Part shown: positions 6,024 to 45,803 of the stretch, piece after piece
Position numbering within the stretch: position 1 is the first letter of the stretch
Layout of the letters: each line of letters begins with the position of its first letter
Source: Allobosea sp.
Lineage (GTDB): Bacteria; Pseudomonadota; Alphaproteobacteria; Rhizobiales; Beijerinckiaceae
Direction: 5' to 3'
Length of the DNA: 64,000 bases
Assembly (NCBI RefSeq): GCF_017308075.1
Contig: NZ_JAFKFX010000042.1
Span: 20,672-84,671 of the forward strand
Position numbers and translations under genes: made by a program
Notes under the pieces: model-generated
The model's database searches: none
What the model saw: the letters and a program-made list of their open reading frames with translations, nothing else
What the model was told of the DNA's origin: nothing

Positions 6024-6041
6024 GCAATCCCGGCAGCGCGA

Positions 6042-6075: not shown

Positions 6076-6167
6076 GCCGCCGCACGCTGGCCTGGAATCC
6101 GACCGTCGTTGACACAGTGGCCTTTGATCGGAGAACGTTCAACGCCCCAAAAACAAGTAGCTACCTT

Positions 6168-6203
6168 ATGGTATGAATTATGGTAGGAATGATGGTATGA
6201 ATT
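6168..6203. repeat. Three tandem 12-bp repeats
   Basis: ATGGTATGAATT, ATGGTAGGAATG and ATGGTATGAATT lie head to tail in a locally AT-rich stretch between the IS remnant and the integrase stop. The first and third copies are identical. They may be arm-type binding sites for the adjacent integrase or excisionase. Confidence 0.6.
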
Positions 6204-6233
6204 GAAATCAGATGGCATTGTAAATATTTGATT

Positions 6234-18855: not shown

Positions 18856-18963
18856 CCCGATGCTATTGATCAAGCATTCGATCCAGGTACGAATATCGAT
18901 GACGACCGCCTGCCGAAGTCGGAGTGCAGTCATAGCTGCCTCAAATCTTATCGAGAGCGTATC

Positions 18964-20974: not shown

Positions 20975-21023
20975 CCTTTCCCGACCCAGCATGCCGCCGC
21001 GACCGGAGCGGCAAGGAGCGACC

Positions 21024-23849: not shown

Positions 23850-23886
23850 GCAAAACCCTTCCTTCTCTCCTCACAGGATGATCTCC

Positions 23887-26274: not shown

Positions 26275-26901
26275 TCAGGCGGCAAGGACGCCATGGGCGG
26301 CCAGCCGCGCCAGGATCAGGGCTTCCTGCTGATGCTTCAGCGCGGTGACGCGCGCCGTCGCAGCTTCGAGGGATGCGGCCGGTTCGTAGATCGGCGAGGT
26401 CCCGGATTGCCCGGTCTCGGCGCCGATGCGCTTTTCGAATGGCAGCGAGCGGTAGAGCGCCGGATCGGCGGTCACGTCGAATAGCGGCCGATAGCCCAGC
26501 TTGATATAGAGCGCCGTCGCCTCGGGCTGGCGGAAGCCCGTCGTGAGATAGGCCCGCCTGTAGCCCTGTGCGGCGGCCCGCGCTTCCAATTCGGCGACGA
26601 TGCGCTCTGCCAGCCCCTGACGGCGAAATCCGTCATCCGTCCAGATGCGCTTGAATTCGGCCGTCTCGTCGTCATGGCTCATGAAGGCGCCGCCGGCGAT
26701 GGTCCGGCCGGACCGCTGCAGCAGGATGAAGTCGCCTAGCGGTGGCGAAAAGGCTTCGGCCGGATAGCGGAACAGCTCCGAGCGCGCCCCGCCGGGCCGG
26801 CTGTTCGCGCCATAGCGCCCGTCATATTCGAGGATGAGCCCTTCGACGAGCGGCCGCGCCGCCTCGCAATGATGCGACGATCTGAGGATGACGTCGCTCA
26901 T
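26275..26901 (-). CDS. GNAT-family N-acetyltransferase
   Basis: A 208-aa acetyl-CoA-dependent acetyltransferase. The acetyl-CoA loop is FRRQGLAERIV, with LTTGFRQPEATALYIKLGY forming the C-terminal strand and helix. It is clearly paralogous to the enzyme at 32164-32691 (shared EYDGRYG, AGGAFM, RRQGLA, YLTTG.RQPEA), with ~45 extra C-terminal residues. The start at 26901 follows GAGAGG. By context it probably N-acetylates a cysteine derivative. Confidence 0.88.
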   Translation of the reverse strand: MSDVILRSSHHCEAARPLVEGLILEYDGRYGANSRPGGARSELFRYPAEAFSPPLGDFILLQRSGRTIAGGAFMSHDDETAEFKRIWTDDGFRRQGLAERIVAELEARAAAQGYRRAYLTTGFRQPEATALYIKLGYRPLFDVTADPALYRSLPFEKRIGAETGQSGTSPIYEPAASLEAATARVTALKHQQEALILARLAAHGVLAA

Positions 26902-27254: not shown

Positions 27255-28181
27255 TCAGGTCGGCACTGTGCCGATGGCTCTGCTCACGATGCCCGCCTCG
27301 AGCTCCGGCCTGCACAGTTCGATGAAGCGATGGGCGTAGCCGGGCAGGAAGCGCCCGCGCGGCGCTGCGATATAGGATGTCGCTATTGGGAAAAGGCCGT
27401 CGGCGATCTTGACCAGGCCAGGATCGCATTCCGGATCAAAGGCGACCTCGGCGACGATGCCCAAGCCCAGCCCCAATGCGACATAGGACTTGATCACGTC
27501 GGAATCGATGGCAGAGACGACGATATCGGGCCTCAACCCGCGATCATGGAACGCCGCATCGATCAGCGGGCGCCCGGTGAAGCCCTGGCCGTAAGTTACG
27601 ATCGGCCGCTCCGCGATCTCGGACAGGCCGACATCGCTGCGGCTGGCGAGCGAGTCGTTCCGGCCGGCGATGACGATGTGGCGCCAGCTGTAGTAGGGGA
27701 AGGCGACCAGATCCGCCGCCTGGGCAAGGCTTTCGGTGGCTATGCCGATATGGGCGCTTCCTTCGCGCAAGCGGGCAACGATCTCGGTGGGCTCGCTCTG
27801 CCGGATCGAGAGACGCACGCGGGGAAACTCGTCCCGGAATTGCTTGATGATGCGAGGCAGCGCATAGCGCGCTTGGGTGTGCGTCGTGGCGATCACGAAT
27901 TCACCGGAAGCGGGATCGCGCAACTGGTCAGTGACGCGCTTGATGCTCATCGCGTCGGCAAGGATGCGCTCGACATAGCTGATGACGGAGCGGCCCGCTT
28001 CGGTGAGGCCGATCATGCGTTTGCCGCGTCGCTCGAACAGCTCGACGCCGAGTTCCAGCTCAAGGTCCCGGATGTGCTTCGACACGCCGGATTGCGAGGT
28101 ATTCAGCGCCGCCGCAGCCTCGGTGAAGTTGTAGCCGCTGCGGACGGCTTCCTGGAGAATGCGAAACTGCTGCAGATTCAT
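27255..28181 (-). CDS. CysB-like LysR-family regulator
   Basis: A 308-aa transcriptional regulator. The N-terminal HTH (FTEAAAALNTSQSGVSKHIR) and, above all, the effector domain are CysB-like: IATTHTQARYALPRIIKQF, ATESLAQAADLVAFPYYSW, VTYGQGFTGRPLIDAAF and DADVIKSYVALGLGLGIVAE-like residues. In CysB these segments bind sulfate or O/N-acetylserine. It is placed between the transporter operon and the monooxygenase operon, and likely activates both under sulfur limitation. Confidence 0.9.
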   Translation of the reverse strand: MNLQQFRILQEAVRSGYNFTEAAAALNTSQSGVSKHIRDLELELGVELFERRGKRMIGLTEAGRSVISYVERILADAMSIKRVTDQLRDPASGEFVIATTHTQARYALPRIIKQFRDEFPRVRLSIRQSEPTEIVARLREGSAHIGIATESLAQAADLVAFPYYSWRHIVIAGRNDSLASRSDVGLSEIAERPIVTYGQGFTGRPLIDAAFHDRGLRPDIVVSAIDSDVIKSYVALGLGLGIVAEVAFDPECDPGLVKIADGLFPIATSYIAAPRGRFLPGYAHRFIELCRPELEAGIVSRAIGTVPT

Positions 28182-28620: not shown

Positions 28621-29592
28621 ATGACCTATTTTCTGAGCCTTCTCGACAAGAGCCCGATTCCCGGGGGCTCCAACCCTGAACGTGCCCTGGCCGATACCGT
28701 CGCCTATGCACGCCATGCGGAGAAGCTCGGCTATCATCGCTTCTGGCTGGCCGAGCATCATGGCAGCGCGGAGGTCGCCGGCGTGGCGCCGGAAATCCTG
28801 GCCGCGTGGGTTCTGGCATCGACGGAACGTATTCGCGTCGGATCCGGCGGCGTCATGCTGCAGCATTACAGCCCCTTCAAGGTCGCCGAGACCTTCAGGC
28901 TTCTGGCTGCGCTCGCGCCCGATCGGGTCGACCTCGGGATCGGCAGGGCGCCCGGCGGATTGCCGCAGACCACCCAGGCGCTTCAAGCCCGCCTCGACAA
29001 GTCGGCTCCGCCCGATTTCGCCGCTCTGGCCGAGGAGCTGGACGGACATCTGAACGGCGAACTCGCACGCCCGCTGCCGCGCGTCGCGCCGCGGCGGGTT
29101 CTGCTCGGCGGCTCCCCGGACAGCGGTGCGCTTGCCGCCCGACTCGGCTGGGATTTCGTCTTCGCCGGCCATTTCAATGGCGATGCGGCTTTGATCGAGG
29201 CCAGCCTCGGCGCTTATCGCACCGGCGGCGGCCGCGCACCGGCGCTGGCCGTACATGCCTTCGCGGCAACTTCGGCAGCTTCGGCGCGGGACGCGGTGCG
29301 CGAAACGCGCATCTTTCGCGTCACGCTGTCGGATGGACGTGCGCTCAATCTGCGCAGCCGCGAGCAGGCCGAGAGCTTCGCGCGGCAGGCGGGCGACAGC
29401 GGTTTCACCATCCGCGAGACGCAGCCCCACGTCATCGCCGGCTCGGGCGAGGATGTGCGCGCCGCACTCGATGCGCTCGCGGAGCGCTTCGACGTGAACG
29501 AACTCGTGCTCGACAACCCGGTTCCCGATGGTGCCGCGCGCCGGCTCTCCATCGAGTTGATCGCCACCGGCACCCGCCGCGCCGCGGCCTGA
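28621..29592 (+). CDS. LLM-class flavin monooxygenase, luciferase group 1 (YtmO/CmoO-like)
   Basis: A 323-aa FMN-dependent monooxygenase with the group 1 luciferase-like signature ([63 protein letters not shown]). It depends on reduced flavin supplied by a reductase. The ATG at 28621 is favoured over 28588 because CGGAG lies seven bases upstream and the family starts there. First gene of a nine-gene run; in Bacillus subtilis a relative (YtmO) sits in the cysteine-derivative salvage operon, so S-oxidation of an N-acetylated S-alkylcysteine is likely. Confidence 0.88.
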
Positions 29593-29621
29593 CCGCTGAC
29601 CTGAAAGGAATGAGGCGCCCC

Positions 29622-30974
29622 ATGACCGCGACCGACAAGAAGCCCGTGAAGTTCGGCATCATGCTGCATGGTGCGGGCGGGCACATGAATTCCTGGCGCC
29701 ATCCCTCCGGCCGGGCCGATGCCAGCGTCAATCTCGACTTCTACATCGACACGGCACGGAAGGCCGAGGCGGCAGGCGTTACCTTCGCCTTCGTGGCAGA
29801 CGGCCTCTACATCAACGAGAAGTCGATCCCGCATTTCCTCAACCGTTTCGAGCCGCTGACGATCCTGTCGGCGCTGGCGGTCGCGACGACGAAGATCGGT
29901 CTCGCAGGCACGGTCTCGACCTCCTATTCCGATCCTTTCACGATCGCCCGGCAGTTCGCCTCGCTCGACCTCATCTCCAAGGGACGGGCCGGCTGGAACG
30001 TCGTCACCACGCCGCTCGAGGGCTCGGCCAACAACTACAGCCGCCAGCATCCCGAGCATGCGCTGCGCTACGAGATCGCCGACGAATATCTCGAGGTCAC
30101 GCAGGGCCTCTGGGATTCATGGGATGACGACGCAGTCTTGCGCGACCGCGCGACCGGCCGCTTCTTCGATCCCGCCAAGCTGCATCGGCTCGATCACAAG
30201 GGGCGCTTCTTCCAGGTCGAAGGTCCGCTGAACATCGGCCGTTCGAAGCAGGGCCAGCCGGTGATCTTCCAGGCCGGCTCATCGGAGGCCGGCATCAAGC
30301 TGGCCGGCAAATACGCAGATGCCGTCTTCACCCATTCGCCCTCCGTCGCCGAGACGAAGACCTTCCGTGATCAGGTGCGCGCGGCGGCCGTCGCGCATGG
30401 ACGACGCGCCGACGACGTGAAGATCTTCCCCGGCATCGGCCCGATCGTCGGCCGCACGGCGCAAGAGGCGCAGGCGAAGTACGAGGTCATCCGGAACCTC
30501 TTGTCGATCGACGACGCGCTGGCCTATCTCGGCCGCTATTTCGACCATCACGACTTCACGCAGTACCCGCTCGACGCGCCATTCCCGGAACTGGGCGAGA
30601 TCGGCAGGAACAGCTTCCGCTCGACCACGGACCGCATCAAGAAGAACGCACGGGAAAAAGGCCAGACGCTGCGCGAGGTCGCGCTCGAGGCCGCGACGCC
30701 CAAGCCGAACTTCATCGGCACCGGCGCGCATGTGGCGGATGAGATCATCCGCTGGATCGATGCGGGCGCAGCCGACGGCTTCATTCTCGGCTTCTCGGTG
30801 ACGGCTGAGGGGCTGGACGACTTCGTCGAGCTGGTGATCCCCGAACTCGAGTCGCGCGGGCGCTACAGCCGCGATCTTTCCGGCGAAACCCTGCGGGACC
30901 ATCTCGGCCTGCCCTTCAAGCCGAGCCGCTACGCCGAGAACGAGGCGCCTGCGCTGCGGGCGACGGCGCGATGA
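29622..30974 (+). CDS. NtaA/SnaA/DszA-family flavin monooxygenase (YtnJ/CmoJ-like)
   Basis: A 450-aa member of the LLM subfamily with nitrilotriacetate and dibenzothiophene-sulfone monooxygenases. Typical segments: [68 protein letters not shown] and [24 protein letters not shown] six bases before ATG 29622 supports this start over 29610. It overlaps the deacetylase gene by ATGA. In the related Bacillus pathway this enzyme performs the C-S (or S-alkyl) cleavage step. Confidence 0.9.
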
Positions 30975-32149
30975 ACGCTCCGTTTCGAGCCCCGCCGCTC
31001 ACCACGCGGGAAGTCGCGGCGGAGCTCGACCGCTTCGTCGCGCTGCGGCGCCATTTCCACCAGAATCCGGAGCTTTCGACCAAGGAGCGGCAGACGGCGG
31101 GGCGGATCGCGGAGCTGCTCGTCGAATGGGGCTACGAGGTCGAGACGGGCATTGGCGGAGAGGGCGTCGTCGCCTCCCTGCGCAATGGGGCCGGCCAGCG
31201 CGCCATTGGCATCCGTGCCGATTTCGACGCGCTGCCCATCGCCGAGGCGACGGGCCTGCCCTATGCGAGCCGGAGCGCGGGCGTGATGCATGCCTGTGGT
31301 CATGACGGGCATACCACGATCCTGCTGGCGGCCGCCCGTGCGCTCGCCCTGAGAAAGTCCTTCGACGGCACGCTGCGGCTGATCTTCCAGCCGGCCGAGG
31401 AAATCAGTGCCGGCGCCCGGGCGATGATCCGTGACGGGCTGTTCGAGCGCTTCCCCGTGGATGGGATCTTCGGCCTGCATAACTGGCCCGGCGTGCCCGA
31501 GGGCGTCTTCGGCTTCGTCGACGGGCCGGCCATGGCGGCGGTCGACAAGGCGGTCATCACGGTGGCCGGCAAGGGCGGGCATGGCGCCGCGCCGCACGAG
31601 ACCGTCGATCCGGTGCTGGCAGCCGCCCATCTGGTCACGGCGCTGCAGAGCCTCGTTTCGCGCAATATCGATCCGCTGGACGCGGCCGTCGTCACGGTGG
31701 GCTCGATCCATGGCGGCACGGCGTCGAATGTCATCCCGGATTCGGTCGAGCTTCAGGCGACGATCCGCAGCTTCACGCCCGAGGTCCGCGCGTTGCTGGC
31801 CGAGCGGCTGCCGGCGCTGGCGCAAGCCCAGGCCGCCGCCTTCGGCGCGAAGGCCGACGTCGATTACCGGCTCGGCATGCCGGCCGTGGTCAACCACGCC
31901 GCCGAAACCCGCTTCGCGCGGGAGGCCGCGCTGTCCACCTTCGGCGCAGCCGGGGTGATCGAGCATCTGCGGCCACGCTCGGCGAGCGAGGATTTCGCTT
32001 ATTTCCTGGAGCAACGCCCCGGCGCCTTCCTCTTCATCGGGGCTGGGGAGGGCCCGCCGCTCCATTCTCCCCGATACGATTTCAACGACGCGCTGATCGC
32101 GCCGGGCGCGACCTATTGGACGCGTCTCGCCGAGCGATTTCTGGCCTGA
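30971..32149 (+). CDS. M20-family amidohydrolase/deacetylase (YtnL/SndA-like)
   Basis: A 392-aa metallopeptidase-fold amidohydrolase. Metal-ligand motifs are [21 protein letters not shown] (catalytic Glu) and GLHNWPG, with [11 protein letters not shown] near the C-terminus; the dimerisation domain carries [15 protein letters not shown]. The family removes acyl groups from N-acyl amino acids. Coupled by ATGA to the monooxygenase gene and followed by a GNAT: an acetylation-deacetylation pair around an oxidation step. Confidence 0.9.
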
Positions 32150-32163
32150 GCGAGGGAGATCCG

Positions 32164-32691
32164 ATGGCCGATCAGTTCTTTTCGACCAGCCCGGCCGATC
32201 CGCTGGCGCAACCGTTGATCCAGGACCTCATCCGTGAATATGACGGCCGCTATGGTGACATTCCCGGTCGCGACCCGGCGGTCGTCGAGCTGCACCGCTA
32301 TCCGCCCGAGCTCTTCCTGCCGCCCCGCGGCCGCTTCCTGCTCGTGCTGCGTGCCGGCGAGGCGATCGCCGGTGGCGCCTTCATGCCGCATGCCGAGGAG
32401 GCGACGGCCGAGGTCAAGCGGGTCTGGGCGCGGCCCGATCTGAGGCGGCAGGGGCTCGCGGCGCGAGTCGTCATGGAACTCGAACGGCTCGCGCGGCTGC
32501 AGGGCTACACGGACCTCTACCTGACGACCGGCAGCCGCCAGCCGGAAGCCGTGCGGCTCTACCGGTCGCTCGCCTACGAGCCGCAATTCGACCTGAACGT
32601 CGATGCCACGAAGTTCAGCCTTCTGTCGTTCCGCAAGCGGCTCGCCACGCCCTTGAGCGCGCTGGCCGATGCGGCCGCCCTCCCGGCCTGA
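32164..32691 (+). CDS. GNAT-family N-acetyltransferase (YtmI/SnaA-like)
   Basis: A 175-aa acetyltransferase with acetyl-CoA loop LRRQGLAARVVMELE and YLTTGSRQPEAVRLYRSL. AGGGAG precedes the ATG by six bases; the gene begins 14 bases after the deacetylase. It is a shorter paralogue of 26275-26901. In the proposed pathway it would N-acetylate an S-modified cysteine so that the monooxygenases can act. Confidence 0.9.
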   Translation: MADQFFSTSPADPLAQPLIQDLIREYDGRYGDIPGRDPAVVELHRYPPELFLPPRGRFLLVLRAGEAIAGGAFMPHAEEATAEVKRVWARPDLRRQGLAARVVMELERLARLQGYTDLYLTTGSRQPEAVRLYRSLAYEPQFDLNVDATKFSLLSFRKRLATPLSALADAAALPA

Positions 32692-32717
32692 GCCCAAATC
32701 CCGAAGAGGAACCTGAC

Positions 32718-34487
32718 ATGTCTCTCGCCGTCGACGGCTCTGCGGCCGCCGTACCCCTGTCCCAGCCGCGCCTCGACGCGGCCGGCCTGCGCATCGTGCC
32801 GGCCCGTCATCCCTGGCGCTTCGTCGGCGGAGCCTTCGCGCTCGTCCTCGTCTTCTCGGTCGTGAACTCCGTGCTCGGCAATCCGCGCTGGGGCTGGGAC
32901 GTCTTTGCCGAATGGTTCTTCTCCGAGCCGGTGATCGCTGGGCTCGGCCGCACCTTGCTGCTGACGCTGCTTGGTGCGCTCTTCGGCTTCTCCATCGGGG
33001 CTCTCCTGGCGCTGGCACGGCTATCCGGCTCGGTGCCTCTGGCCGCGGTGTCCTGGACCTTCGTATGGCTGTTCCGTTCAATCCCGCTGATCGTGCTCCT
33101 GCTGATCCTCAATAATCTCGGCTATCTCTACGAGACGGTTTCGCTCGGCGTGCCCTTCACGGGTTGGAACTTCTTTTCCTATCCCACCACGCAGCTCATC
33201 AGCCCCTTCATGGCGGCAGTGCTGGGCCTCACGTTGAACCAGGCCGCCTTTTCGGCCGAGTTCATCCGCGGCGGGCTGCTCTCCGTCGACCAGGGCCAGC
33301 ATGAGGCCGCCGCGGCCCTCGGCCTACCGCGGCAGCGGCAATTCTTCCGCATCGTGCTGCCGCAGGCGATGCGTTCGATCATCCCGACGGCCTTCAACGA
33401 CATTATCGGCCTCGCGAAGGGCACCTCCAACGTCTACATCCTGGCGTTGCCGGAACTGTTCTACACCGTACAGGTGATCTACCGCCGCAACCTGGAGGTG
33501 ATCCCGCTGCTGATGGTGGCGACGGTCTGGTATCTCGTCATCCTGACCGTGCTCTCCGTGGTCCAGGCGCAGATCGAGCGCTACTATGCCCGCGGCGCGC
33601 TCCGGCATCTCCCGCCCTCGATCTTCGATCCGTTGCTGCGCCGTCTCGCGCGCAGGGCCGCGCCCGCCGTGCCGCCGGCCGCCGCCTCCGCCGCGCCGGT
33701 GGTTCCCGCTCCGCTGGTCTGGCGTCGCGGGGGCGAGATCACCATCCGCAACGTCTCGAAAAGCTTCGGCGAGCTGAAGGTCCTGGACGACGTCTCGCTC
33801 ACCTTGCCGTCCGGATCGGTCACCGCGATCATCGGCCCCTCCGGGTCCGGCAAGTCGACGCTGCTGCGTTCGATCAACCATCTCGAACGCCTCGACCGCG
33901 GCGTGATCACGCTGGACGGCCAGCTCATCGGCTATCGGCAGGAGGGCGAGCTCCTCTACGAGCTGAAGGAGAGAGAGGTGCTCCGCCGGCGCGTCGATGT
34001 CGGCATGGTGTTCCAGAACTTCAACCTGTTCCCGCATCTGACGGCGCTCGAGAACATCGTCGAGGCGCCGGTCAATGCGCGCGGCGTCGCCCGCGCCGAA
34101 GCGGAAGCCGCCGCAAGCGAACTGCTTGCCCGCGTCGGCCTCTTCGACAAGGTGAACGCCTATCCGCGCCAGCTCTCGGGCGGCCAGCAGCAGCGCGTCG
34201 CGATTGCCCGCGCCCTGGCGCTGAAGCCCAAGGCGCTGCTTTTCGACGAGCCGACATCCGCGCTCGATCCGGAACTGGTCGGCGAAGTGCTCGCCGTCAT
34301 CAAGGAACTCGCCCGCTCCGGCGCGACGCTGGTCATCGTCACCCATGAGATCGGTTTCGCCCGCGAAGTCGCCGACACGGTCGTCTTCATGGATGCCGGC
34401 CGGATCGTCGAGGTCGGCGCGCCCGAAAAGGTGCTCGGCGCACCCGAGCATCCGCGTACGGCGGAATTCCTCGCGAAGGTCCTTTGA
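32718..34487 (+). CDS. Fused polar amino-acid ABC permease and ATPase
   Basis: A 589-aa single-chain transporter. Residues ~75-295 are a HisM-type permease (GRTLLLTLLGALFGFSIGAL, EAAAALGLPRQRQFFRIVLP); a Pro/Ala-rich linker follows (about 310-335). Residues ~340-589 are the ATPase with Walker [14 protein letters not shown]-loop VFQNFNLFPHL, signature [15 protein letters not shown], Walker [13 protein letters not shown] and VTHEIGFA. These parts are normally separate genes. Two binding-protein genes follow, so it probably imports cystine or S-alkylcysteine-like amino acids. Confidence 0.93.
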   Translation: MSLAVDGSAAAVPLSQPRLDAAGLRIVPARHPWRFVGGAFALVLVFSVVNSVLGNPRWGWDVFAEWFFSEPVIAGLGRTLLLTLLGALFGFSIGALLALARLSGSVPLAAVSWTFVWLFRSIPLIVLLLILNNLGYLYETVSLGVPFTGWNFFSYPTTQLISPFMAAVLGLTLNQAAFSAEFIRGGLLSVDQGQHEAAAALGLPRQRQFFRIVLPQAMRSIIPTAFNDIIGLAKGTSNVYILALPELFYTVQVIYRRNLEVIPLLMVATVWYLVILTVLSVVQAQIERYYARGALRHLPPSIFDPLLRRLARRAAPAVPPAAASAAPVVPAPLVWRRGGEITIRNVSKSFGELKVLDDVSLTLPSGSVTAIIGPSGSGKSTLLRSINHLERLDRGVITLDGQLIGYRQEGELLYELKEREVLRRRVDVGMVFQNFNLFPHLTALENIVEAPVNARGVARAEAEAAASELLARVGLFDKVNAYPRQLSGGQQQRVAIARALALKPKALLFDEPTSALDPELVGEVLAVIKELARSGATLVIVTHEIGFAREVADTVVFMDAGRIVEVGAPEKVLGAPEHPRTAEFLAKVL

Positions 34488-34528
34488 TCCCCTTCCAACA
34501 CGCGTTCTCTCCGAAGATTGAAAGGCTG

Positions 34529-35479
34529 ATGCTCATGACGCATTCCCTCGCCATGCCGCGCCGCGTTGCGCTCGGCTTCGTTGCGCTTGTCGCGCTCGCC
34601 CCCTCGCTGGCTTTCGCCCAGCAGCAGTTCGATCTGACCTCCGTGCAGAAGGCGCAGCCGCGCGCCGAGGTCGTGCCGGAAGCGGTGAAGTTGCTCGGCA
34701 AGGACGTGAAGCTCGCCAAGCCCGGCACCTTCACCATCGCGACGACCGGACAGCGCCTGCCGTTCGGCATCAATGCGACCGACAATCAGAGGATCATCGT
34801 CGGGTCCGAGCCCGATATCGGGCGGCTGATCGCCGACGGGCTGGGTCTCGAACTGGAGGTGGTGCAGGTGGCCTGGGCCGACTGGCCGTTGGGTGTCACC
34901 TCGGGCAAGTATGACGCGGCGATCTCTAACGTCACCGTCACCGAACAGCGCAAGGAGCGGTTCGACTTCTCGACCTACCGCAAGGACCAACTCGGCTTCT
35001 ATGTCGGCAGCAAGAGCGCGATCAAGGAGATCGCCAAGCCGGAGGACGTCGCCGGCCTCAAGGTCATCGTCGGCTCCGGCACCAATCAGGAGCAGATCCT
35101 GCTGCGCTGGATCAAGGCCAACGAGGCCAAGGGCCTCAAGACCACCGAAGTGCAGTATTTCGACGATGACGTCGTGCTCTATCTGGCCTTGGAATCCGGC
35201 CGTGCGGACGCTTATTTCGGTCCCAATGGCACGCTCGGCTTCAAATCCGCGCAGACCGGGACCACGCGCCTCGTCGGCTCCTTCTCGGGGGGGTGGCCAG
35301 AGATCGCCGAGATCGCGGTGACGACGAAGAAGGGCGCCGGTCTCGCCGAAGCGATCACCGCCGTGCTCAACGCGCAGATCAAGAACGGCAACTACCAGAA
35401 GTCGCTGGCGCGCTGGGGGCTCGCGCCGGAGGCAATCGAGGTCTCGCGCACCAACCCGCCAGGGCTCCCCAGGAGCTAA
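34529..35479 (+). CDS. Amino-acid ABC substrate-binding protein (copy 1)
   Basis: A 316-aa periplasmic protein of SBP_bac_3 type. Signal peptide RRVALGFVALVALAPSLAFA. The core has FTIATTGQRLPFGINATDN, PDIGRLIADGLGLELEVVQV, YDAAISNVTVTEQRKERFDF and GLKVIVGSGTNQEQILLRW. The ATG at 34529 has AAAGG close upstream; ATG 34535 is an alternative. It is clearly paralogous to the next gene. It serves the fused transporter. Confidence 0.9.
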   Translation: MLMTHSLAMPRRVALGFVALVALAPSLAFAQQQFDLTSVQKAQPRAEVVPEAVKLLGKDVKLAKPGTFTIATTGQRLPFGINATDNQRIIVGSEPDIGRLIADGLGLELEVVQVAWADWPLGVTSGKYDAAISNVTVTEQRKERFDFSTYRKDQLGFYVGSKSAIKEIAKPEDVAGLKVIVGSGTNQEQILLRWIKANEAKGLKTTEVQYFDDDVVLYLALESGRADAYFGPNGTLGFKSAQTGTTRLVGSFSGGWPEIAEIAVTTKKGAGLAEAITAVLNAQIKNGNYQKSLARWGLAPEAIEVSRTNPPGLPRS

Positions 35480-35546
35480 CGCGAACCGCGAAACCGCGAT
35501 GCGGGACGCCGAAAGCCGGCGGCCCGCTCCTTTCAGGAGCAAACCA

Positions 35547-36470
35547 ATGTTCATCCGCAAGGCGGCCCTTGCCGCCGCCGCCATGGTTGCGTTCGCCACG
35601 CTCGCCTCGGCGCAGAGCGTCTATGATCTGAGCCCGCAACAGCCTGGCCGGCCTCGTACGCAGCCCAATCCCGCGGCGATCGCCGCCATCGCCGGCGACG
35701 CCAGGCTCGTCGAGCCCGGCGTCCTGACCGTGGCGACCAATGCGAGCACGCCGCCGCTGGCGACCTATGCGACGGATTCCGCGACCCTTGTCGGCGCCGA
35801 TCCCGATGTCGCGCAGCTCATCGCCGACAGCCTCGGCCTCAGGCTCAAGCTCATTCCCACGCCCTGGGCAGACTGGCCGCTGGGAGTCGCATCCAGAAAA
35901 TACGATGCGGCGATCTCCAACATCGGCGTCACGGAGCAGCGCAAGGAGAAGTTCGATTTCTCGAGCTATCGCGCGGGCTTGCACGGTTTCTTCGTCAAGG
36001 CGGACAGCAAGGTCGGGAAGATCGCCGAGCCAAAGGACGTCGCGGGGCTGCGCGTCGTGCTGGGTGGCGGCACCAATCAGGAGCGCATCCTGCTCGAATG
36101 GAGCAAGCAGAACCTCGCGGCGGGGCTGAAGCCGATCGAGCTCATCACCTTCGACGACGAGGCCAATCGCCTGTTGGCGTTGTCTTCGGGCCGCGCCGAC
36201 GTGATCGTGCAGCCGCATGCGCAGCTGCTCTTCATCCAACAGCGCGACCGGAACATCAGGCGCGTGGGCGTGCTGAGCGCGGGCTGGCCGGAAAGGTCGG
36301 ACGTCGCCGTGGCGACGCGCAAGGGCGCGGGGCTGGCCCAGGCGATCACGCTCGCCCTGGAAGGCGCCTATCGGGACGGCACCTTCGATGCGGCGCTCAG
36401 GCGCTGGGGTGTCGAGGAGGAGCGCCTCGAAAAGCCCGAGACAAATCCCCGCGGCCTGCCGAAATATTGA
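35547..36470 (+). CDS. Amino-acid ABC substrate-binding protein (copy 2)
   Basis: A 307-aa tandem paralogue of 34529-35479, sharing the ADWPLGV, KYDAAISN, VTEQRKE.FDFS and GTNQE.ILL segments. Signal peptide RKAALAAAAMVAFATLASA. AGGAG precedes the ATG by eight bases. Divergence in the region after PGVLTVATNASTPPLATYA, which lines the ligand pocket in this family, suggests a second substrate for the same transporter. Confidence 0.9.
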   Translation: MFIRKAALAAAAMVAFATLASAQSVYDLSPQQPGRPRTQPNPAAIAAIAGDARLVEPGVLTVATNASTPPLATYATDSATLVGADPDVAQLIADSLGLRLKLIPTPWADWPLGVASRKYDAAISNIGVTEQRKEKFDFSSYRAGLHGFFVKADSKVGKIAEPKDVAGLRVVLGGGTNQERILLEWSKQNLAAGLKPIELITFDDEANRLLALSSGRADVIVQPHAQLLFIQQRDRNIRRVGVLSAGWPERSDVAVATRKGAGLAQAITLALEGAYRDGTFDAALRRWGVEEERLEKPETNPRGLPKY

Positions 36471-36480
36471 GGGCGCGATC

Positions 36481-37665
36481 ATGAGCTCTCAAATGGCGGA
36501 CATCGTCGTCCTCGGCCTCGGCGCCATGGGGTCGGCCGCCCTGTTTCAGCTTGCATCGCGCGGCGCCGACGTCCTCGGGGTCGATCAGTTCCATCCGCCG
36601 CACGAGAACGGCTCGAGCCATGGCGAGACGCGCGTCACGCGCCTCGGCGTGGCCGAAGGCACGGCACTGGCGCCACTGGTGAAGCGCTCGCATGAGATCT
36701 GGAAGGAGCTGGAGGGCCGGACTGGCGAAAGCCTGTTCGGGCAGGTCGGCTTCCTGGCGATATCGAGCGAGCCTTTGCAGCACGGTGCGGCCGATTATGT
36801 CGAGCGTACGCTCGCCGTCGCCCGGCGCAGCGGCACACGACACGAGCTGATCGCCCCCGACGAGGCGCGCCGCCGCTATCCCTGGCTGAACGTCGCCGAC
36901 GGAGACCGGGTCTATTTCGAGCCGGAAGGCGGATATCTGCGTCCCGAGCGCTGCGTCGCGGCGCAGCTTCGGCTCGCCGCCGCAGCCGGCGCGCGGCTGG
37001 TGCTCGACACGCGGGTCGAGGCGATCGTCCCGCACGCCGGTCATGTCGAGATCAGGACCGGCAAGGGCAGGATCCTCGCGGGCCGCGTCGTGGTCAGCGC
37101 CGGCGCCTGGGCTGGCCGGCTGCTGGGGCCGCAGGTCTCCGGGCTGCTGCGCCCCACGCGCGAAATCCTGCACTGGTATGCGCTCGAGCCGTCTGCTCCG
37201 GCCGGATGGGGCGAGGCGCCGGTCTATATCTGGTCCTACGGGCACGGCGTGGAAGAGGGCTTTTACGGCTTTCCCGCCTTCGACGGCTCGGTGAAGCTGG
37301 CCCATGGCGAGAAGACCCGCAGCGTCGACCCGGATGGTTTTGATCGATCGAGCGAGGAGGAGGAGTCGCGTGACTTCTATGCGCGTTCCATCGCCGGGCG
37401 GCTGAAAGGCCTGCGCGTCGACCAATCGCGCCGCAAGACCTGCCTCTACACGGTTTCTCCGGATAACGGCTTCATCATCGACCAATGGCCGCAATGTGAG
37501 CGTGTGCTCGTCGTCTCGCCCTGCTCGGGGCATGGCTTCAAGCACTCGGCTGCGATCGGTGAGGCCGTCAGCCAGCGGCTTCTGGATGGCGCAAGCCGCA
37601 TCGATCTCGCGGCTTTCGGACTGGCGCGGTTCGGCCATGCGCCGCTTCCTGACGTTGCTGCCTAG
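36481..37665 (+). CDS. FAD-dependent amine oxidase of the monomeric sarcosine oxidase / SolA family
   Basis: A 394-aa DAO-fold flavoenzyme. The dinucleotide motif is IVVLGLGAMGSAALFQLASR; the family segment HENGSSHGETRVTRLGVAEG follows. Near the C-terminus KTCLYTVSPDNGFIID holds the cysteine that binds FAD covalently in monomeric sarcosine oxidase, and SGHGFKHSAAIGEAVS is conserved. It oxidises secondary or N-alkylated amino acids, releasing an aldehyde and hydrogen peroxide. Within this operon it may act on an N- or S-modified amino acid; substrate unknown. Confidence 0.88.
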   Translation: MSSQMADIVVLGLGAMGSAALFQLASRGADVLGVDQFHPPHENGSSHGETRVTRLGVAEGTALAPLVKRSHEIWKELEGRTGESLFGQVGFLAISSEPLQHGAADYVERTLAVARRSGTRHELIAPDEARRRYPWLNVADGDRVYFEPEGGYLRPERCVAAQLRLAAAAGARLVLDTRVEAIVPHAGHVEIRTGKGRILAGRVVVSAGAWAGRLLGPQVSGLLRPTREILHWYALEPSAPAGWGEAPVYIWSYGHGVEEGFYGFPAFDGSVKLAHGEKTRSVDPDGFDRSSEEEESRDFYARSIAGRLKGLRVDQSRRKTCLYTVSPDNGFIIDQWPQCERVLVVSPCSGHGFKHSAAIGEAVSQRLLDGASRIDLAAFGLARFGHAPLPDVAA

Positions 37666-37771
37666 CCGACATATCGCCGAGCCGAGGCCGGAAGAGCATC
37701 CGGCCTGGTGCTCGATCACGATAGGCAGAGCCTCGCGGCCTTCGCCCGGTCCAGGGTGCCGGAGATAGAGC

Positions 37772-38968
37772 ATGGCCGGCCGCCGCCAACCTTTCACAGA
37801 GAGCATCGATCCCGTGTACGACTTCGACCTCGCGCCAGACCGCCTCGAGACCGGCAGTACGAAATGGAGCCGCTATCCGGCCGACGTCCTGCCCATGTGG
37901 ATCGCCGACATGGATTTCGCCGTCGCTCCTGAAATCGTCTCGGCGCTGAAGCGGCGGCTCGACCATCCGGTATTCGGCTATGCCGTCGCCAAATCCCAGC
38001 TTCGCGAGCAGATCGTGGCCGATCTCGACAGGCGGTTCGGATGGCGGATCGCGCCCGATGACATCGTGTTCCTGCCGGGTATCGAGCCCGGCTTCAACAT
38101 GGCCCTGAAGGCGAGCCTCTCGCCCGGCGAAAAGATCCTGATCCAGACGCCGATGTACAAGCCCATCCTGGATGCGCCGAGCCATTGGGGCCTCGAGGCG
38201 CTTCATGTGCCGCTCGTCCGTGGCGAGAAGGGCTACGGGCTGGATCGCGGCGCGCTGGCGGAAAAGCTGGCCGGGGCTGGCGCGTTCCTCCTGTGCAACC
38301 CGCACAACCCGACGGGCCATGTCTACGCGCGGGACGATCTCGCCTTCATCGCCGCGGCCTGCGAGGCCGGGGACACATTGATCATCTCCGACGAAATCCA
38401 TTGCGATCTCGTCTTCGACGGCCGGTCGCATGTTCCGATCGCGAGCCTCGCTCCGGAGATCGCGAAGCGGACCATCACGCTCATGTCCGCCAGCAAGACC
38501 TACAACATCCCGGGACTCAAGACCGGCTTTGCCATCATCACCGACCGCGAGCTCCGCGATGCCTTCAACGCGGCCCGCAGCGGCATGGTCGACAGTGTCA
38601 ATCTGATGGGGCTCGAAGCCACATTGGCGGCTTATCGCGACGCCGGCCCGTGGCGCGCGGCGCTTCTCGACTATCTGCAGGAGAACCGCGATCACCTGGG
38701 CCGCGCGCTTTGGCGGCTGATCCCGGACATCCGCTACCATCCTCCCGAGGCCTCTTTCCTGGCCTGGCTCGACTGCAGCGCGCTGGGCCTGAAGCAGAGG
38801 CCGCATCTCTTCTTTCTCGAGGAAGCGAAGCTCGGGCTCTATGCCGGGGAGGTTTTCGGGACGGGATACGAGCAGTTCGTCCGCCTGAATTTCGGCTGCA
38901 CGCGAGCAACGCTGACGCAGGCGGTCGAGCGCATGGCTGCTGCCCTCTCGCGGAATGCCGGGAACTGA
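37772..38968 (+). CDS. patB: PatB/MalY-type cystathionine beta-lyase (C-S lyase)
   Basis: A 398-aa fold-type I PLP enzyme that releases thiols from cysteine S-conjugates, giving pyruvate and ammonia. The PLP lysine is Lys242 in SASKTYNIPGLK; LPMWIADMDFAVAPEI, LLCNPHNPTGHVY and IISDEIHCDLVF are classic for PatB/MalY. It starts 106 bases after the flavoenzyme gene, so it may have an extra promoter. It offers an alternative route for cleaving imported S-substituted cysteines. Confidence 0.92.
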   Translation: MAGRRQPFTESIDPVYDFDLAPDRLETGSTKWSRYPADVLPMWIADMDFAVAPEIVSALKRRLDHPVFGYAVAKSQLREQIVADLDRRFGWRIAPDDIVFLPGIEPGFNMALKASLSPGEKILIQTPMYKPILDAPSHWGLEALHVPLVRGEKGYGLDRGALAEKLAGAGAFLLCNPHNPTGHVYARDDLAFIAAACEAGDTLIISDEIHCDLVFDGRSHVPIASLAPEIAKRTITLMSASKTYNIPGLKTGFAIITDRELRDAFNAARSGMVDSVNLMGLEATLAAYRDAGPWRAALLDYLQENRDHLGRALWRLIPDIRYHPPEASFLAWLDCSALGLKQRPHLFFLEEAKLGLYAGEVFGTGYEQFVRLNFGCTRATLTQAVERMAAALSRNAGN

Positions 38969-39056
38969 GTTCCCTCACGGCGGGGCGGCGGTATTCCGGC
39001 CGCCTCCGATCTTGCGGCTGCGCGGCGGCCTTAAGCCGGCGCTTGGCTGGCGAATA

Positions 39057-39635
39057 TCAGTCGGAACGCAGGCCGAGCGCGGCCGAGGCCTCCTCCGGCA
39101 ACCAGCCCAGCCGCTCGTAATTGCCGCGCCAATAGGCCAGCGCGGCGTTTTCGCCGCCGAGCCGGATCTCGCGGACGCGGCCGATGACGATCGCATGGGA
39201 GTGCCGCTCGATCAGATCCTCCACCTCGCAGTCGAGAGCGGCCAGCGCACCGACGAGGAGCGGAGCTCCGGTCGGGCCTTCGCTCCACTCCACCCCGGCA
39301 TAGCGGGCCGCGCCCTTTTCGCCGCCACGGCCAGCGAAGCGATCCGCGACCTTGGCCTGGGCTGCGGTCAGGAAGTTGACGCCGAAGGCGCGGTGTCGGC
39401 CGAGCAAGGGAAAGCTCGACGATGCGAGGTTGAGCCCGAACATCACCGTCGGCGGTTCGGCCGAAAGGGACGACACCGAGGTTGCGGTCAGGCCGGTGCG
39501 GTCCTCGCCACGCCCGACGGTGACGACGCTGACGCCACCGACGAGCCGACGCAGCGCCGTGCGAAACGTGGCGGTATCGGGCGAGGCAGGTTGCTGCCGG
39601 AGAGCTGCCCTGGTGTGGAGCGGGATGATGGTCAA
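39057..39635 (-). CDS. NAD(P)H:flavin reductase (HpaC/DszD family)
   Basis: A 192-aa flavin reductase domain protein with FRTALRRLVGGVSVVTVG, GLTATSVSSLSAEPPTVMF, FGVNFLTAAQ and a late GRVREIRLGGENAALAYWRG. Such enzymes feed reduced FMN to two-component monooxygenases. It converges on the PatB gene and is the obvious partner for the two LLM enzymes at 28.6-31 kb. Confidence 0.9.
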   Translation of the reverse strand: MTIIPLHTRAALRQQPASPDTATFRTALRRLVGGVSVVTVGRGEDRTGLTATSVSSLSAEPPTVMFGLNLASSSFPLLGRHRAFGVNFLTAAQAKVADRFAGRGGEKGAARYAGVEWSEGPTGAPLLVGALAALDCEVEDLIERHSHAIVIGRVREIRLGGENAALAYWRGNYERLGWLPEEASAALGLRSD

Positions 39636-40191: not shown

Positions 40192-40890
40192 CTACGAGCT
40201 TGCCACGATCTTGTCGGCCAGCAGGCGAATGCGGATGGGATCTCGAGCCGCCCATGGATGGATCTGATGGGGAGCGTCGGGAAGATCGAGGTGATCGAGC
40301 ATGGCCGAGGGGATGGCTCGGCGATAGGCTTCGATCACGCTAGCGGGAATTACGTGATCCTGCCCGGCGGTGACGAGGAGCACTTTTCCACGGAATGTGC
40401 GGAGGAGTGGGAGAGGGCGGGCATTCGCGAAATCCCGGCTCTGCCGCAGAACCTCAGTGAAATGATGATCGAAGTGCACATCGAATGCCTCCGCCACGTA
40501 AAGGGCAGGGCAGGAGAGCACCAGCGAACGCGGCTGCAGGAACGCGAGCAACTCGGCTGCCACATAGCCGCCCATGCTGTTGCCCATGACGATGCTGGGC
40601 TCGCTTTCGCCCATGAACGCAGCCGCGGCACGCGCCTGGTCGAGCCGCAGCCTGAGGCTGGACCCGGAGAGTTGTCCGGAACTCTCGCCATGGCCGGAGA
40701 AGTCGAAGGCGAAGGTCGAGACGCCCCGCTCCGCCAAGGCCCGGGCAAGATAGCCGATACGCTTGCGGTTCCCCGAGCCGCCGCCGTGCAGATACAGCAT
40801 GTGCCCGGTCGCGCTGCCGCTGGGCGCTACCCAGGTGTAGCGCAGCGTCTCGCCCGTGGCCTCGAAGCTGCCGTCCTGGCAGCGGATCAA
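40192..40890 (-). CDS. Alpha/beta hydrolase
   Basis: A 232-aa serine hydrolase. The oxyanion HGGG-type segment is HMLYLHGGGSGNRKR, the nucleophile elbow is VMGNSMGGYVAAE (Ser in GNSMG), the acid lies in LLVTAGQDHVIP and the base His in DAPHQIHPWA. The start is taken as TTG 40890, with GGGGAGG five bases upstream, 19 bases after the ATPase stop. It is the last gene of the ten-gene minus-strand operon. Substrate likely an ester or amide intermediate of that pathway. Confidence 0.82.
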   Translation of the reverse strand: MIRCQDGSFEATGETLRYTWVAPSGSATGHMLYLHGGGSGNRKRIGYLARALAERGVSTFAFDFSGHGESSGQLSGSSLRLRLDQARAAAAFMGESEPSIVMGNSMGGYVAAELLAFLQPRSLVLSCPALYVAEAFDVHFDHHFTEVLRQSRDFANARPLPLLRTFRGKVLLVTAGQDHVIPASVIEAYRRAIPSAMLDHLDLPDAPHQIHPWAARDPIRIRLLADKIVASS

Positions 40891-40909
40891 GCGAGCCTCC
40901 CCAGGCTGG

Positions 40910-41677
40910 CTAGCGATGGAGGATTTGCCCGAGGAAGGCCTTCGTCCTCTCGTTTCGCGGATTGGTGAAGAACGCTTCCGGAGGCGCCTCTTCGACGATC
41001 TCCCCCTTGTCCATGAACAGGATGCGGTCGGCGACGGTGCGCGCAAAAGCCATCTCGTGGGTGACGCAGACCATGGTCATGCCCTGACCGGCGAGCTCGA
41101 CGATCACGTCGAGGACCTCCTTGATCATTTCCGGGTCGAGGGCCGAGGTCGGCTCGTCGAACAACATGGCCGTCGGCTTCATGCACAGCGCCCGTGCGAT
41201 CGCCACGCGCTGCTGCTGTCCGCCGGAGAGTTCGCCAGGGTATTTGTGCGCCTGCTCTCCAATGCGGACACGCAGCAGGTATTCGCGCGCCGTCGCCTCC
41301 GCTTCGTCCTTGCTGACGCCCTTGATCTTCATGGGCGCGATCATGAGGTTTTGCAGGACGGTGAGGTGCGGGAAGAGATTGAATTGCTGGAACACCATGC
41401 CGACGTCCTGCCGGACGGCGGCAACACTGCGCATGCTGTGGTCCAGGGTGACGCCGTTGACGAGGATCTCACCGTCGCGATGGTCCTCGAGCCGGTTGAT
41501 ACAACGGATCAGGGTCGATTTTCCTGATCCGGACGGCCCGCAGATCACCACGCGCTCGCCGCGCGCGACCTCGAAGTCGATTTTCTTCAGAACCTGAAAG
41601 TCGCCATACCATTTGCTCACGCCGCGGAGGCGGATCATCGGAGCGGTGTCGGCTGCCGCCAGCGTCGATGTCGTCAT
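40910..41677 (-). CDS. Polar amino-acid ABC ATPase (GlnQ/HisP type)
   Basis: A 255-aa ATPase. Walker [14 protein letters not shown]-loop [11 protein letters not shown], signature [15 protein letters not shown], Walker [16 protein letters not shown]-loop [13 protein letters not shown] eight bases before ATG 41677. It works with the two permeases and binding protein further upstream in the operon, separated from them by the epimerase and SDR genes. Confidence 0.93.
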
Positions 41678-41696
41678 CGTTTCGTTCCTTAGAAGC

Positions 41697-42470
41697 CTAG
41701 CTCGCCATCCAGCCGCCGTCGACGAGGAGATTCTCCCCGGTGATGAAGTTCGCCTCGTCCGAGGCCAGGAACAGCGCGGCGCTCGCAACATCGTCCGGCC
41801 TGCCGAAGCGCGGCCAGGGCGTCCGGTTGCGGGAGTATTCGAGCCAGCGCTCTTCGACTGCACGGCCGGTCTTGCCCGTCAGGATCTTGCCGGGAGCCAC
41901 GGCGTTGCAGATGATGCCGTGTCTGGCATAGTCGGCGGCGATCTGCCGGGTCATGTAGACGACCCCGGATTTCGAGGTTCCGTAGGCGATATCCTCCGGA
42001 GCGGCGATCATGCCGTGCTGCGAGGAAATATTGACGATCCGGCCGCGAGCCTCGTTGCGGATCTCCTGGGTCATCATCTGCCTGACGGCGGCGCGCGCCA
42101 TCAGGAACGGCCCCGTCAGATTGACCGCCAGAACCCTGTTCCATTCGGCGAGGCTGGTCTCGACGAGCGGCTTGCCGACGCCGATCGCGGCATTGTTCAC
42201 GAGGACGTCGAGCCGGCCGAAACGGCGGGTCGCTTCGTCGACCACCCTTTCGACATCCTCTTCGTTGGCGACATCGGCCTTCAGAAAGGCAATGTCGTGT
42301 CCTTCGCGGCGAAGCACCGTTTCGATCGGCTCGCCACCCTCGCGGACCTCTTCCGTCCGATCGACGAGCACGAGACGTGCGCCTTCCGATGCGAAGCGCA
42401 GGGCGATGGCCCGCCCGATGCCGGATGAAGCCCCGGTGATGATCGTCACCTTGCCCGAAAGCCTGGTCAT
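41697..42470 (-). CDS. Short-chain dehydrogenase/reductase
   Basis: A 257-aa classical SDR. Cofactor motif [19 protein letters not shown] strand, catalytic Ser in NISSQHG and YxxxK in [10 protein letters not shown], with typical C-terminal [19 protein letters not shown]. Acidic residue at the end of strand 2 (LVLVDRTEE) points to NAD(H). Starts inside the epimerase stop (ATGA), GGGGAGG upstream. It presumably oxidises an alcohol intermediate. Confidence 0.92.
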
Positions 42471-43456
42471 GGCCGTGCCTCCCCGAGCGCCGCAAGCCGG
42501 CGCGTCCAGTCGAGATATTCGCTCGCCGCCGCAGCGAGCTCGCGCCGGGCGGAGAACCCGGTGTCGGCCGCGAGGGCGGCGGTGCTCAGGGCAGGGCGAT
42601 CCTGCTTGAGATTGTAGGCGACGCTCGCCGGCTCGCCGGCCTCCGCGAGGCGGTAGCGAAGGCCCGTGTGCCGGGCGATATGGCTGCACCATTCGAGCAG
42701 GTCGGTCGTGCTGCCTGCGCCGAGATTGTAGATCCGCCGCTGCAAGCTCTGGCCGAAGAGAACCGTGACGATGCCGGAGGCCGCATCGCGCGAGTAGATC
42801 CAATCCGCGGCCATCGGGCGCGGCAGCACGACCTCTTGCCCGGCAAGAGCCTGATCGAGGATCTGCAGATGCGGGCTCATCGCGTCGCGCGCGCCAGAGC
42901 GATGTTCCCAAGGACCAAAGACGGGCCCCAGGCGCACCACCCGGACATCGATGTCATACAGGCCGCCGAGATGCAGGGCAGCCTGTTCGGAAGCGAGCTT
43001 GGTGATGCCGTACAGCGAAGCGGGCGAAGGGCAGGAGCTTTGCTCCTCATAGCTGCCCGACGGGCCCGGAGCGGAGGAGCCGTAGACGGCGACGGAGCTG
43101 AGCATCGTCAGGCGCCGTATCCCGCCGTGCTCGTGCGCCTGCTCCAGAACGTTCAGAGTCCCGTTCAGGTTGACGTCGACGATGCTGCGCGCGTCGGTCC
43201 TTTCCCTTTGCGGCCCGGCGGTGATCGCCGCCGTATGCACGATGCGGTCTATCGAGCAGCCGGCAAGCGCCCGACGGATATCGTCGGCGCAGGTCACGTC
43301 TCCAACTACGGGCCTTGCCGCCTGCCCGAACTGCTTCAGGGCGTGGGGCGGGGGCTGGCGGGTATCGAAGAGGACGATGTCCTCGCCATGGGCGAGCAGT
43401 TGCTCGGCGATCGCAAGGCCGACGAAGCCTGCGCCTCCGGTGATAAGAACGGTCAT
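42467..43456 (-). CDS. NAD-dependent epimerase/dehydratase family protein
   Basis: A 329-aa extended SDR. N-terminal TGGAGFVGLAIAEQL binds NAD; the catalytic YGITK and SSVAVYG segments are present, followed by RLGPVFGPWEHRSG. The family acts on nucleotide sugars, sugar acids or lactones. It is coupled by ATGA to the SDR gene and ten bases downstream of a permease gene. The exact substrate is not visible. Confidence 0.88.
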   Translation of the reverse strand: MTVLITGGAGFVGLAIAEQLLAHGEDIVLFDTRQPPPHALKQFGQAARPVVGDVTCADDIRRALAGCSIDRIVHTAAITAGPQRERTDARSIVDVNLNGTLNVLEQAHEHGGIRRLTMLSSVAVYGSSAPGPSGSYEEQSSCPSPASLYGITKLASEQAALHLGGLYDIDVRVVRLGPVFGPWEHRSGARDAMSPHLQILDQALAGQEVVLPRPMAADWIYSRDAASGIVTVLFGQSLQRRIYNLGAGSTTDLLEWCSHIARHTGLRYRLAEAGEPASVAYNLKQDRPALSTAALAADTGFSARRELAAAASEYLDWTRRLAALGEARP

Positions 43457-43466
43457 GGCAGATCCC

Positions 43467-44138: not shown

Positions 44139-44150
44139 CGTGCCTGTACC

Positions 44151-44825: not shown

Positions 44826-44902
44826 GACAGATGTCCGCCCAAGGTCCGTCGCAGCCGGAACGGAGCCCGGCCGCGGTGGATTTTGCGTGCTTCACGCCAG
44901 GA

Positions 44903-45769: not shown

Positions 45770-45803
45770 GGGGTTCCTCCTCAATTGTTGTTCTGTGTCG
45801 GGA

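Follow-up and report, generated by a model that had tools for sequence, protein, structure and literature searches.

Gene content of the locus

We examined a stretch of 64,000 nucleotides from Allobosea sp. (hereafter the window; NCBI RefSeq assembly GCF_017308075.1, a genome of 5.55 Mb, contig NZ_JAFKFX010000042.1, positions 20,672 to 84,671) and describe within it a candidate operon for the salvage of S-modified (S-alkylated) cysteines, similar to the CmoO/CmoJ operon of Bacillus subtilis. Open reading frames (ORFs) and family scans place the following genes on the + strand at 28621-38968, in this order: a luciferase-like monooxygenase (LLM) of the MsnO8/group 1 type (LLM1, 28621-29592; TIGR03558, 301 bits against a cut-off of 167); an NtaA-type LLM, a flavin mononucleotide (FMN) monooxygenase of the YtnJ/CmoJ type (29610-30974; TIGR03860, 526 bits, cut-off 280); an M20 amidohydrolase (30971-32149; TIGR01891, 357 bits, cut-off 154); a GNAT acetyltransferase (32164-32691; PF00583); an amino-acid ATP-binding cassette (ABC) transporter with permease and ATPase fused in a single ORF (32718-34487; PF00528 and PF00005); two substrate-binding proteins (SBP1, 34529-35479, and SBP2, 35547-36470); an MTOX/sarcosine-oxidase-type flavoenzyme (36481-37665; NF008425, N-methyl-L-tryptophan oxidase, 397 bits, cut-off 257); and a PatB/MalY-type C-S beta-lyase (37772-38968; TIGR04350), whose membership is uncertain. 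Convergent with these genes is a flavin reductase (39057-39635, - strand; PF01613, 131 bits), and divergent from them is a CysB-like LysR regulator (27255-28181, - strand; PF00126 and PF03466).

From LLM1 to MTOX, adjacent genes overlap by 4 bp or are separated by 10 to 67 bp, and 106 bp lie between MTOX and PatB. This gene list, its order and its strands, including that of the convergent flavin reductase, had been put forward by a model from the letters and ORFs alone (the sequence-only reading), and our ORFs and family scans bear it out. So does the context of the LLM1 start it had chosen: position 28621 is preferred over the longer ORF start at 28588 because its GGAGCnGAnCATG context is common to the window, Bosea sp. 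Root381 and a further genome, G337.

On its PF00528, PF00005 and PF00497 matches the ABC importer is classed as of the amino-acid type, and relatives of the fused gene are annotated as ‘amino acid ABC transporter permease/ATP-binding protein’. A cystine type is likely, given that cystine models rank first or second for three of its parts, all below cut-off: TcyN (a cystine ATPase model) is second for the ATPase half, the cystine-binding model is second among the amino-acid SBP models of NCBIfam for SBP1, and it ranks best for SBP2 (PF00497), for which the nearest solved chains are weak.

Similarity to YtnJ and conservation of the core

Compared with B. subtilis YtnJ (1tvl), the NtaA-type protein reaches 541 bits and is identical at 242 of 425 aligned residues (57%). 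In a tree of the 113 island copies introduced below, YtnJ and five paralogues, YtnJ groups with the island copies (support 100), the tree program flagging YtnJ and the paralogues as long branches. On this identity, and on a tree read with its long-branch warnings, we assign the protein to the YtnJ/CmoJ type; cmoJ we take to be ytnJ, and cmoO to be ytmO. The accessible part of PMC8234197 describes for this monooxygenase group an oxygen motif that includes N-x-V, and N-x-V is present throughout the 114 sequences examined (x being Val in 66, Ala in 47 and Leu in one). Plasmid matches to the protein form two identity groups, one of 55-78% that includes Pantoea and Erwinia and one of at most 45%, with none between 45% and 55% among the records listed (60 of 557, spread over the ranking); the upper group consists of YtnJ-type copies and the lower of other NtaA-type proteins. 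At E up to 1e-100 there were 274 plasmid records, 203 of them at 60-80% identity.

The sequence-only reading had called for a gene-neighbourhood search, and the co-occurrence it anticipated is present. The 113 loci that we compared comprise the window, 13 loci of the same genus (L038-L050), 80 genome-contig loci (the best 80 of 579 confirmed), G337 (L147), seven plasmid loci and 11 from an order sample; L037 (a copy of L057) and the paralogue loci L051-L056 were left out, and with core proteins identical in L061/L176 and in L114/L160, 111 of the 113 are distinct. The selection was not random: most loci were picked for their resemblance to the window protein. A match had to reach an E value of 1e-8 or below and span more than 35% of the query, so that single-gene counts take in distant homologues, and several loci stop early at contig ends, where absences may be overstated.

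Within these limits LLM1 is found on the strand of the YtnJ-type gene, and no more than 600 bp upstream of it, in 109 of the 113 loci, which come from Alpha-, Beta- and Gammaproteobacteria, and an adjacency this frequent is more than chance. Within 9 kb of the YtnJ-type gene we found homologues of LLM1 in 111 loci, of the GNAT in 110, of the permease/ATPase in 111 (108 when at least 60% identity is required) and of M20 in 64; a third LLM was present in 66, a flavin reductase in 22 and a DoeB-like M14 deacylase in 17. All LLM1, GNAT, M20 and M14 cases are on the strand of the YtnJ-type gene, as are the permease/ATPase in 110, the third LLM in 65 and the flavin reductase in 17. The run LLM1-YtnJ-(M20)-GNAT-permease/ATPase-SBP occurs in 79 loci, in 57 of them with M20.

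A less biased sample of 397 genomes of the same order (Hyphomicrobiales), scored on a few top candidates from each genome with E no higher than 1e-150, held 14 genomes with a YtnJ-type copy; all 14 show LLM1-YtnJ-(M20)-GNAT-permease/ATPase, 13 of them with M20. The island is rare in this sample yet compact. The genes of the island are also annotated on plasmids of Terrarubrum, Sinorhizobium, Roseomonas, Rhizobium and Paraburkholderia, with deviations: Roseomonas lacks M20, Paraburkholderia has an aspartoacylase-type gene, a Pantoea plasmid carries the set rearranged with permease and ATPase separate, and on an Erwinia plasmid the YtnJ-type gene is accompanied by an annotated GNAT and an ABC transporter of another kind. 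In a small control of six NtaA-type paralogue loci, five (L051-L055) have no LLM1, GNAT or M20 match.

A proposed salvage pathway

In B. subtilis, according to the accessible part of PMC10863075, an S-modified cysteine is N-acetylated and oxidised by CmoO to a sulfoxide, the C-S bond of which is cleaved by CmoJ to yield an aldehyde and N-acetylcysteine sulfenic acid; the latter is reduced and then deacetylated, and a flavin reductase is involved. We consider it probable that the operon of the window is a proteobacterial salvage operon of this CmoO/CmoJ type, and for the core of this interpretation homology and neighbourhood together give good support. From the gene content, homology and conserved order demonstrated above we infer every reaction, substrate and regulatory step as follows. 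S-alkylcysteines would enter through the ABC importer, served by its two binding proteins, and would have their amino group acetylated by the GNAT. LLM1, in the role of CmoO, would oxidise the sulfur to the sulfoxide, and the YtnJ-type monooxygenase would then break the C-S bond of the N-acetylated sulfoxide to give an aldehyde and N-acetylcysteine sulfenic acid, the latter being reduced by cell thiols. M20, as a putative N-acetylcysteine deacetylase, would strip the acetyl group to leave cysteine, while the flavin reductase would feed reduced flavin (FMNH2) to both monooxygenases. The divergent CysB-like protein probably turns the operon on at sulfur shortage.

The B. subtilis Cmo operon, the make-up and regulators of which (AscR and CymR) are given in PMC6323116, likewise combines a GNAT, a cystine-type ABC importer, two LLM monooxygenases of which the YtnJ-type enzyme is 57% identical to that of the window, and an M20 deacetylase. 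The two operons differ in gene order and in the fusion of permease and ATPase here. CmoI lies between CmoO and CmoJ in B. subtilis, whereas here neither CmoI nor RibR nor YtnM was recognised in the operon. In that comparison the gene-by-gene roles behind the Bacillus gene names are presumed in part. MTOX and PatB are additions relative to the B. subtilis operon, just as the sequence-only reading had held the flavoenzyme and the lyase to lie outside the Bacillus layout. Its larger proposal, a proteobacterial counterpart of the B. subtilis salvage set, stands for the core on the YtnJ identity and the conserved neighbourhood and is not supported where it took PatB and the regulator for regular parts.

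Several observations weigh against the salvage reading. The GNAT has a single weak solved relative and no informative family model. No counterpart of CmoI, RibR or YtnM was recognised in the operon, every gene of which is assigned elsewhere, the rest of the genome not having been searched. Root381 has no M20 near the core, nor have 13 of the 14 islands of the other Bosea-genus lineage, and the sixth control locus (L056) does have LLM1-like (46%) and gnat2-like (70%) genes. Finally, two genes of the window are hardly conserved with the core: MTOX, at 84% identity or more, occurs in three of the 113 loci (the window, Root381 and G337), and PatB in two, the window and Terrarubrum, where it is 57% identical and on the opposite strand.

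As far as the literature we found goes, the CmoO/CmoJ pathway has been characterised in B. subtilis only, and a search, with most subscription journals outside its reach, found no publication on the proteobacterial operon described here. What we describe is a differently ordered and strongly conserved proteobacterial version, present also on many rhizobial, Burkholderia-group and Pantoea plasmids. If our reading is correct, it would represent a general route of sulfur recovery from S-conjugates for soil and plant-associated bacteria.

The variable 3' end

The commonest recognised gene after the binding proteins in the 113 loci is a third LLM. In three same-order genomes (L184-L186) this is followed, as next recognised gene, by a relative (60%) of the cysteine-synthase homologue of the window, a 78% relative of which follows the SBP in L040. 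In G337 the third LLM is followed by MTOX, on which a stretch of a cysteine-synthase homologue converges; in Root381, which is without M20, the gene next after the second binding protein is MTOX; and the window lacks a third LLM and carries both MTOX and PatB. This variable slot, occupied by a third LLM, a cysteine-synthase homologue, MTOX or PatB, offers a direct handle on the extra enzyme of each lineage.

We regard MTOX as a lineage-specific operon member; the case for PatB is weaker. The lyase is assigned to the PatB family of C-S lyases by its TIGR04350 score (409 bits, above the cut-off of 340), its best solved matches being 5z0q and PatB 6qp3. Its two occurrences near the core, one of them on the opposite strand, do not support the idea that it is a regular part of the system. 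Under our reading PatB and MTOX would each have joined the variable 3' end in particular lineages. PatB probably offers a direct beta-lyase route for non-acetylated conjugates, and the amino acid that MTOX oxidises is probably one whose amine is secondary, either N-substituted or cyclic.

Alternatively, the core might serve S-alkylcysteine salvage as we propose while MTOX, PatB and the flavin reductase are simply unrelated neighbours. This is compatible with our reading of the core and is a serious contender, to which we give a little less than even weight. It draws on the scarcity of PatB and MTOX beside the core, and on the more distant MTOX relatives: 28 were listed, and in all 11 of the loci fetched they lie away from such islands, the two plasmid records read (of 11) placing them near hydantoinase/oxoprolinase and alanine-racemase genes. 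Other MTOX relatives in the order sample are at most 51% identical among the matches listed, and a weak match in L049 (25-29%) was not counted as a member. Set against this, a gap of 10 to 39 bp separates MTOX from the operon gene before it in each of the three carriers, all three keep the same unusual pocket, and 22 of the 113 loci have a homologue of the flavin reductase; in 12 of the 14 islands of the other Bosea-genus lineage it lies just upstream of LLM1 on the same strand.

The pocket can be read against SoxB, the monomeric sarcosine oxidase, to which MTOX is 34.5% identical (128/371). Equivalents of SoxB His45, Arg49, Arg52, Tyr254, Lys265, Cys315, His345 and Lys348 are retained, whereas Tyr55 is replaced by Val, Phe100 by Tyr, Met245 by Ile and His269 by Gly. 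We take SoxB Cys315 to be the cysteine that binds flavin adenine dinucleotide (FAD) covalently and Lys265 to be the lysine that activates O2; these align with Cys321 and Lys272 of MTOX, while Arg54 and Lys354 align with Arg52 and Lys348, described as carboxylate-binding in the accessible part of PMC12582975. By these counterparts of the covalent-FAD cysteine, the O2-activating lysine and the carboxylate-binding arginine and lysine, MTOX is assigned to the monomeric sarcosine oxidase/N-methyltryptophan oxidase family, from which it departs at the positions of Tyr55, Phe100, Met245 and His269. SoxB Tyr55 is the third carboxylate residue, and Val stands in its place. Tyr106, Tyr253 and His275 are present in all three island copies of MTOX and in none of 13 more distant relatives aligned, several of which are close to one another; we therefore rejected the view that this flavoenzyme is just another member of the wider MTOX group.

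A more specific role for MTOX is conceivable, namely that of a thiazolidine oxidase closing a leak in the pathway, although we think it improbable. CmoJ-type cleavage would release an aldehyde (formaldehyde from S-methylcysteine), with which cysteine freed by M20 could condense to thiazolidine-4-carboxylate (thioproline); MTOX would then oxidise the cyclic secondary amine so that the trapped cysteine is regained, possibly via N-formylcysteine and the M20 hydrolase. The idea is possible because L-thioproline is among the minor substrates that SoxB oxidises, and the pocket residues of SoxB influence that activity, as described in the accessible part of PMC12582975, and it is not likely because Tyr254, which hinders thioproline in SoxB, is retained in MTOX. 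If true, this would be a dedicated repair of the pathway's own by-product and would give a sarcosine-oxidase-type enzyme a physiological role in cysteine salvage; the literature search described above found no publication placing such an enzyme in a cysteine-salvage operon.

Less likely substrates for the core

The M20 protein has as its best solved match YxeP/ScmP (1ysj; 270 bits, 145 of 363 residues identical), the motifs HACGHD, PAEE and KGGH being common to both; YxeP and ScmP are the same protein, since scm is the renamed yxe cluster. N-acetylcysteine deacetylase activity has been demonstrated for YxeP, YtnL and YhaA (accessible part of PMC12757645), and it is by homology only that we class the M20 protein of the window as a putative N-acetylcysteine deacetylase. 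This likeness raises the question of whether the operon is instead an scm/yxe-type pathway for S-(2-succino)cysteine, in which acetylation is followed by breakdown by one monooxygenase and by deacetylation. The scm (yxe) locus and its 2SL variant do share this logic and an M20 enzyme of the same family, the window M20 being closest in the PDB to YxeP/ScmP itself, and CmoJ is a sequence homologue of YxeK (accessible part of PMC10863075). As described in the accessible part of PMC9706529, however, the yxe locus has one monooxygenase, replaceable by a lyase, whereas here there are two LLMs: a YtnJ-type enzyme, its identity to YtnJ being 57%, and a second LLM encoded just upstream of it in 109 of the 113 loci. 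No match to a lyase-class-I model appeared among the family models shown for the operon proteins scanned. We regard the S-(2-succino)cysteine pathway as unlikely, and liken the exchange of one enzyme between the otherwise similar scm/yxe and 2SL loci (same part of PMC9706529) to the variation seen here.

That the two LLMs act on some other organosulfur compound or chelator (nitrilotriacetate, EDTA, dimethyl sulfide or dibenzothiophene sulfone), the amino-acid genes being incidental, is still less likely: TIGR03860 is named NtaA/DmoA and the nearest solved chain, 3sdo (624 bits), is named nitrilotriacetate monooxygenase, but EDTA monooxygenase (199 bits), dimethyl-sulfide monooxygenase (228), DszA (265) and 7e36_B (279) all score far below YtnJ, and a GNAT and an amino-acid permease/ATPase (at least 60% identity) accompany the pair in 110 and 108 of the 113 loci, respectively. 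On these bit scores a nitrilotriacetate, EDTA or dimethyl sulfide role for the LLM pair was rejected.

The CysB-like regulator and the second acetyltransferase

The divergent regulator has as its best solved match CysB 1al3 (253 bits over residues 1-303, 131/303 identical), with THTQARY and GFTGR common to both; these motifs presumably include effector-binding residues of CysB. It falls below the cut-off of every NCBIfam model shown, including the CysB equivalog (305 against 436 bits) and the CysB-family subfamily (370 against 402). The sequence-only reading had placed the operon under a CysB-like regulator. The likeness to CysB holds, whereas its generality does not: copies divergent from the same operon are 85% and 76% identical in Root381 and G337, and of the loci examined none beyond those two and the window has the regulator at 76% or more, so that CysB regulation of all such islands was rejected. 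Weaker LysR matches (27-33%) in L043, L045 and L091 were not counted. The B. subtilis operon has instead AscR and CymR (PMC6323116). Aligned across the window, Root381 and G337, the divergent intergenic region is conserved in blocks.

Past the regulator lies a second GNAT acetyltransferase (26275-26901, - strand; PF00583), a possible accessory. Root381 and G337 carry copies at the corresponding position (86% and 80% identical), and a 62% homologue adjoins the island on the Roseomonas plasmid. The second GNAT is related to the operon GNAT, and relatives at 68-86% lie by the islands in Root381, G337, L040, L048 and L107. The two acetyltransferases may serve two substrates.

Island lineages and surrounding DNA

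The nearest named relative of the YtnJ-type gene, among the matches listed, is that of Root381 (91%). A YtnJ-type copy of at least 69% identity occurs in 15 of the 37 genomes of the genus that were searched, that of the window included. The tree joins the window with Root381 and G337 (support 99), and this group sits within a set of 64 rows in which Betaproteobacteria are numerous; the other 14 Bosea-genus copies group with Methylobacterium indicum (support 97). The genus thus holds two island lineages, which suggests transfer of the island.

Signs of mobile DNA are seen upstream, with an IstB-type ATPase, a phage-type integrase and an AAA_25 ORF at 4941-7385 and 15296-16651. The G+C content is lower (0.57) at 12-14 and 16-18 kb of the window, and no tRNA was found in the window.

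The sequence-only reading had also noted cysK nearby. A homologue is present (about 18961-19968, + strand), but it lies some 8.7 kb upstream of LLM1 and scores below the cysKM cut-off (TIGR01136, 320 against 344 bits). The link has some support, as seven of the 112 other loci have a relative no more than 9 kb from the YtnJ-type gene, and we treat the homologue as a possible distant member. In the window, together with an OsmC-like ORF (by eye), an NMT1-type binding protein, a permease and an ATPase-like frame (by eye), it makes up a stretch on the + strand, 18961-23881, that looks like a second organosulfur uptake cluster. On the other side, at 40192-45871 (- strand), lie a separate amino-acid-type ABC transporter, an epimerase (PF01370) and a binding protein (PF00497), with an SDR and an alpha/beta hydrolase ORF recognised by eye.

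Several of the loci compared merit a note of their own. The DoeB-like M14 deacylase accompanies the core in 17 of the 113 loci (L071, L073-L075, L077-L079, L081, L086-L089, L092, L099, L102, L115 and L173), all titled Burkholderia or Paraburkholderia and none with M20, and looks like a replacement of the M20 deacetylase; one of these deacylases reached 239 bits, below cut-off. In Rhizobium leguminosarum (L172, 18067-19423) the island is followed by a gene annotated as 2-hydroxychromene-2-carboxylate isomerase, which could be a stand-in for CmoI, and then by an msuE FMN reductase. In L120 (6.3-8.0 kb) the permease/ATPase matches as two pieces, and the gene may be split or frameshifted. Control locus L056 (G022:C9:950001-970000) is a dense NtaA-type paralogue cluster with LLM1-like, flavin reductase and gnat2-like genes, perhaps another organosulfur island of the genus. 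Finally, L126, titled Bacillus subtilis SK7B5, has 68% G+C in the stretch compared and a YtnJ-type protein that falls among Stenotrophomonas in the tree, and is probably a mislabelled genome.

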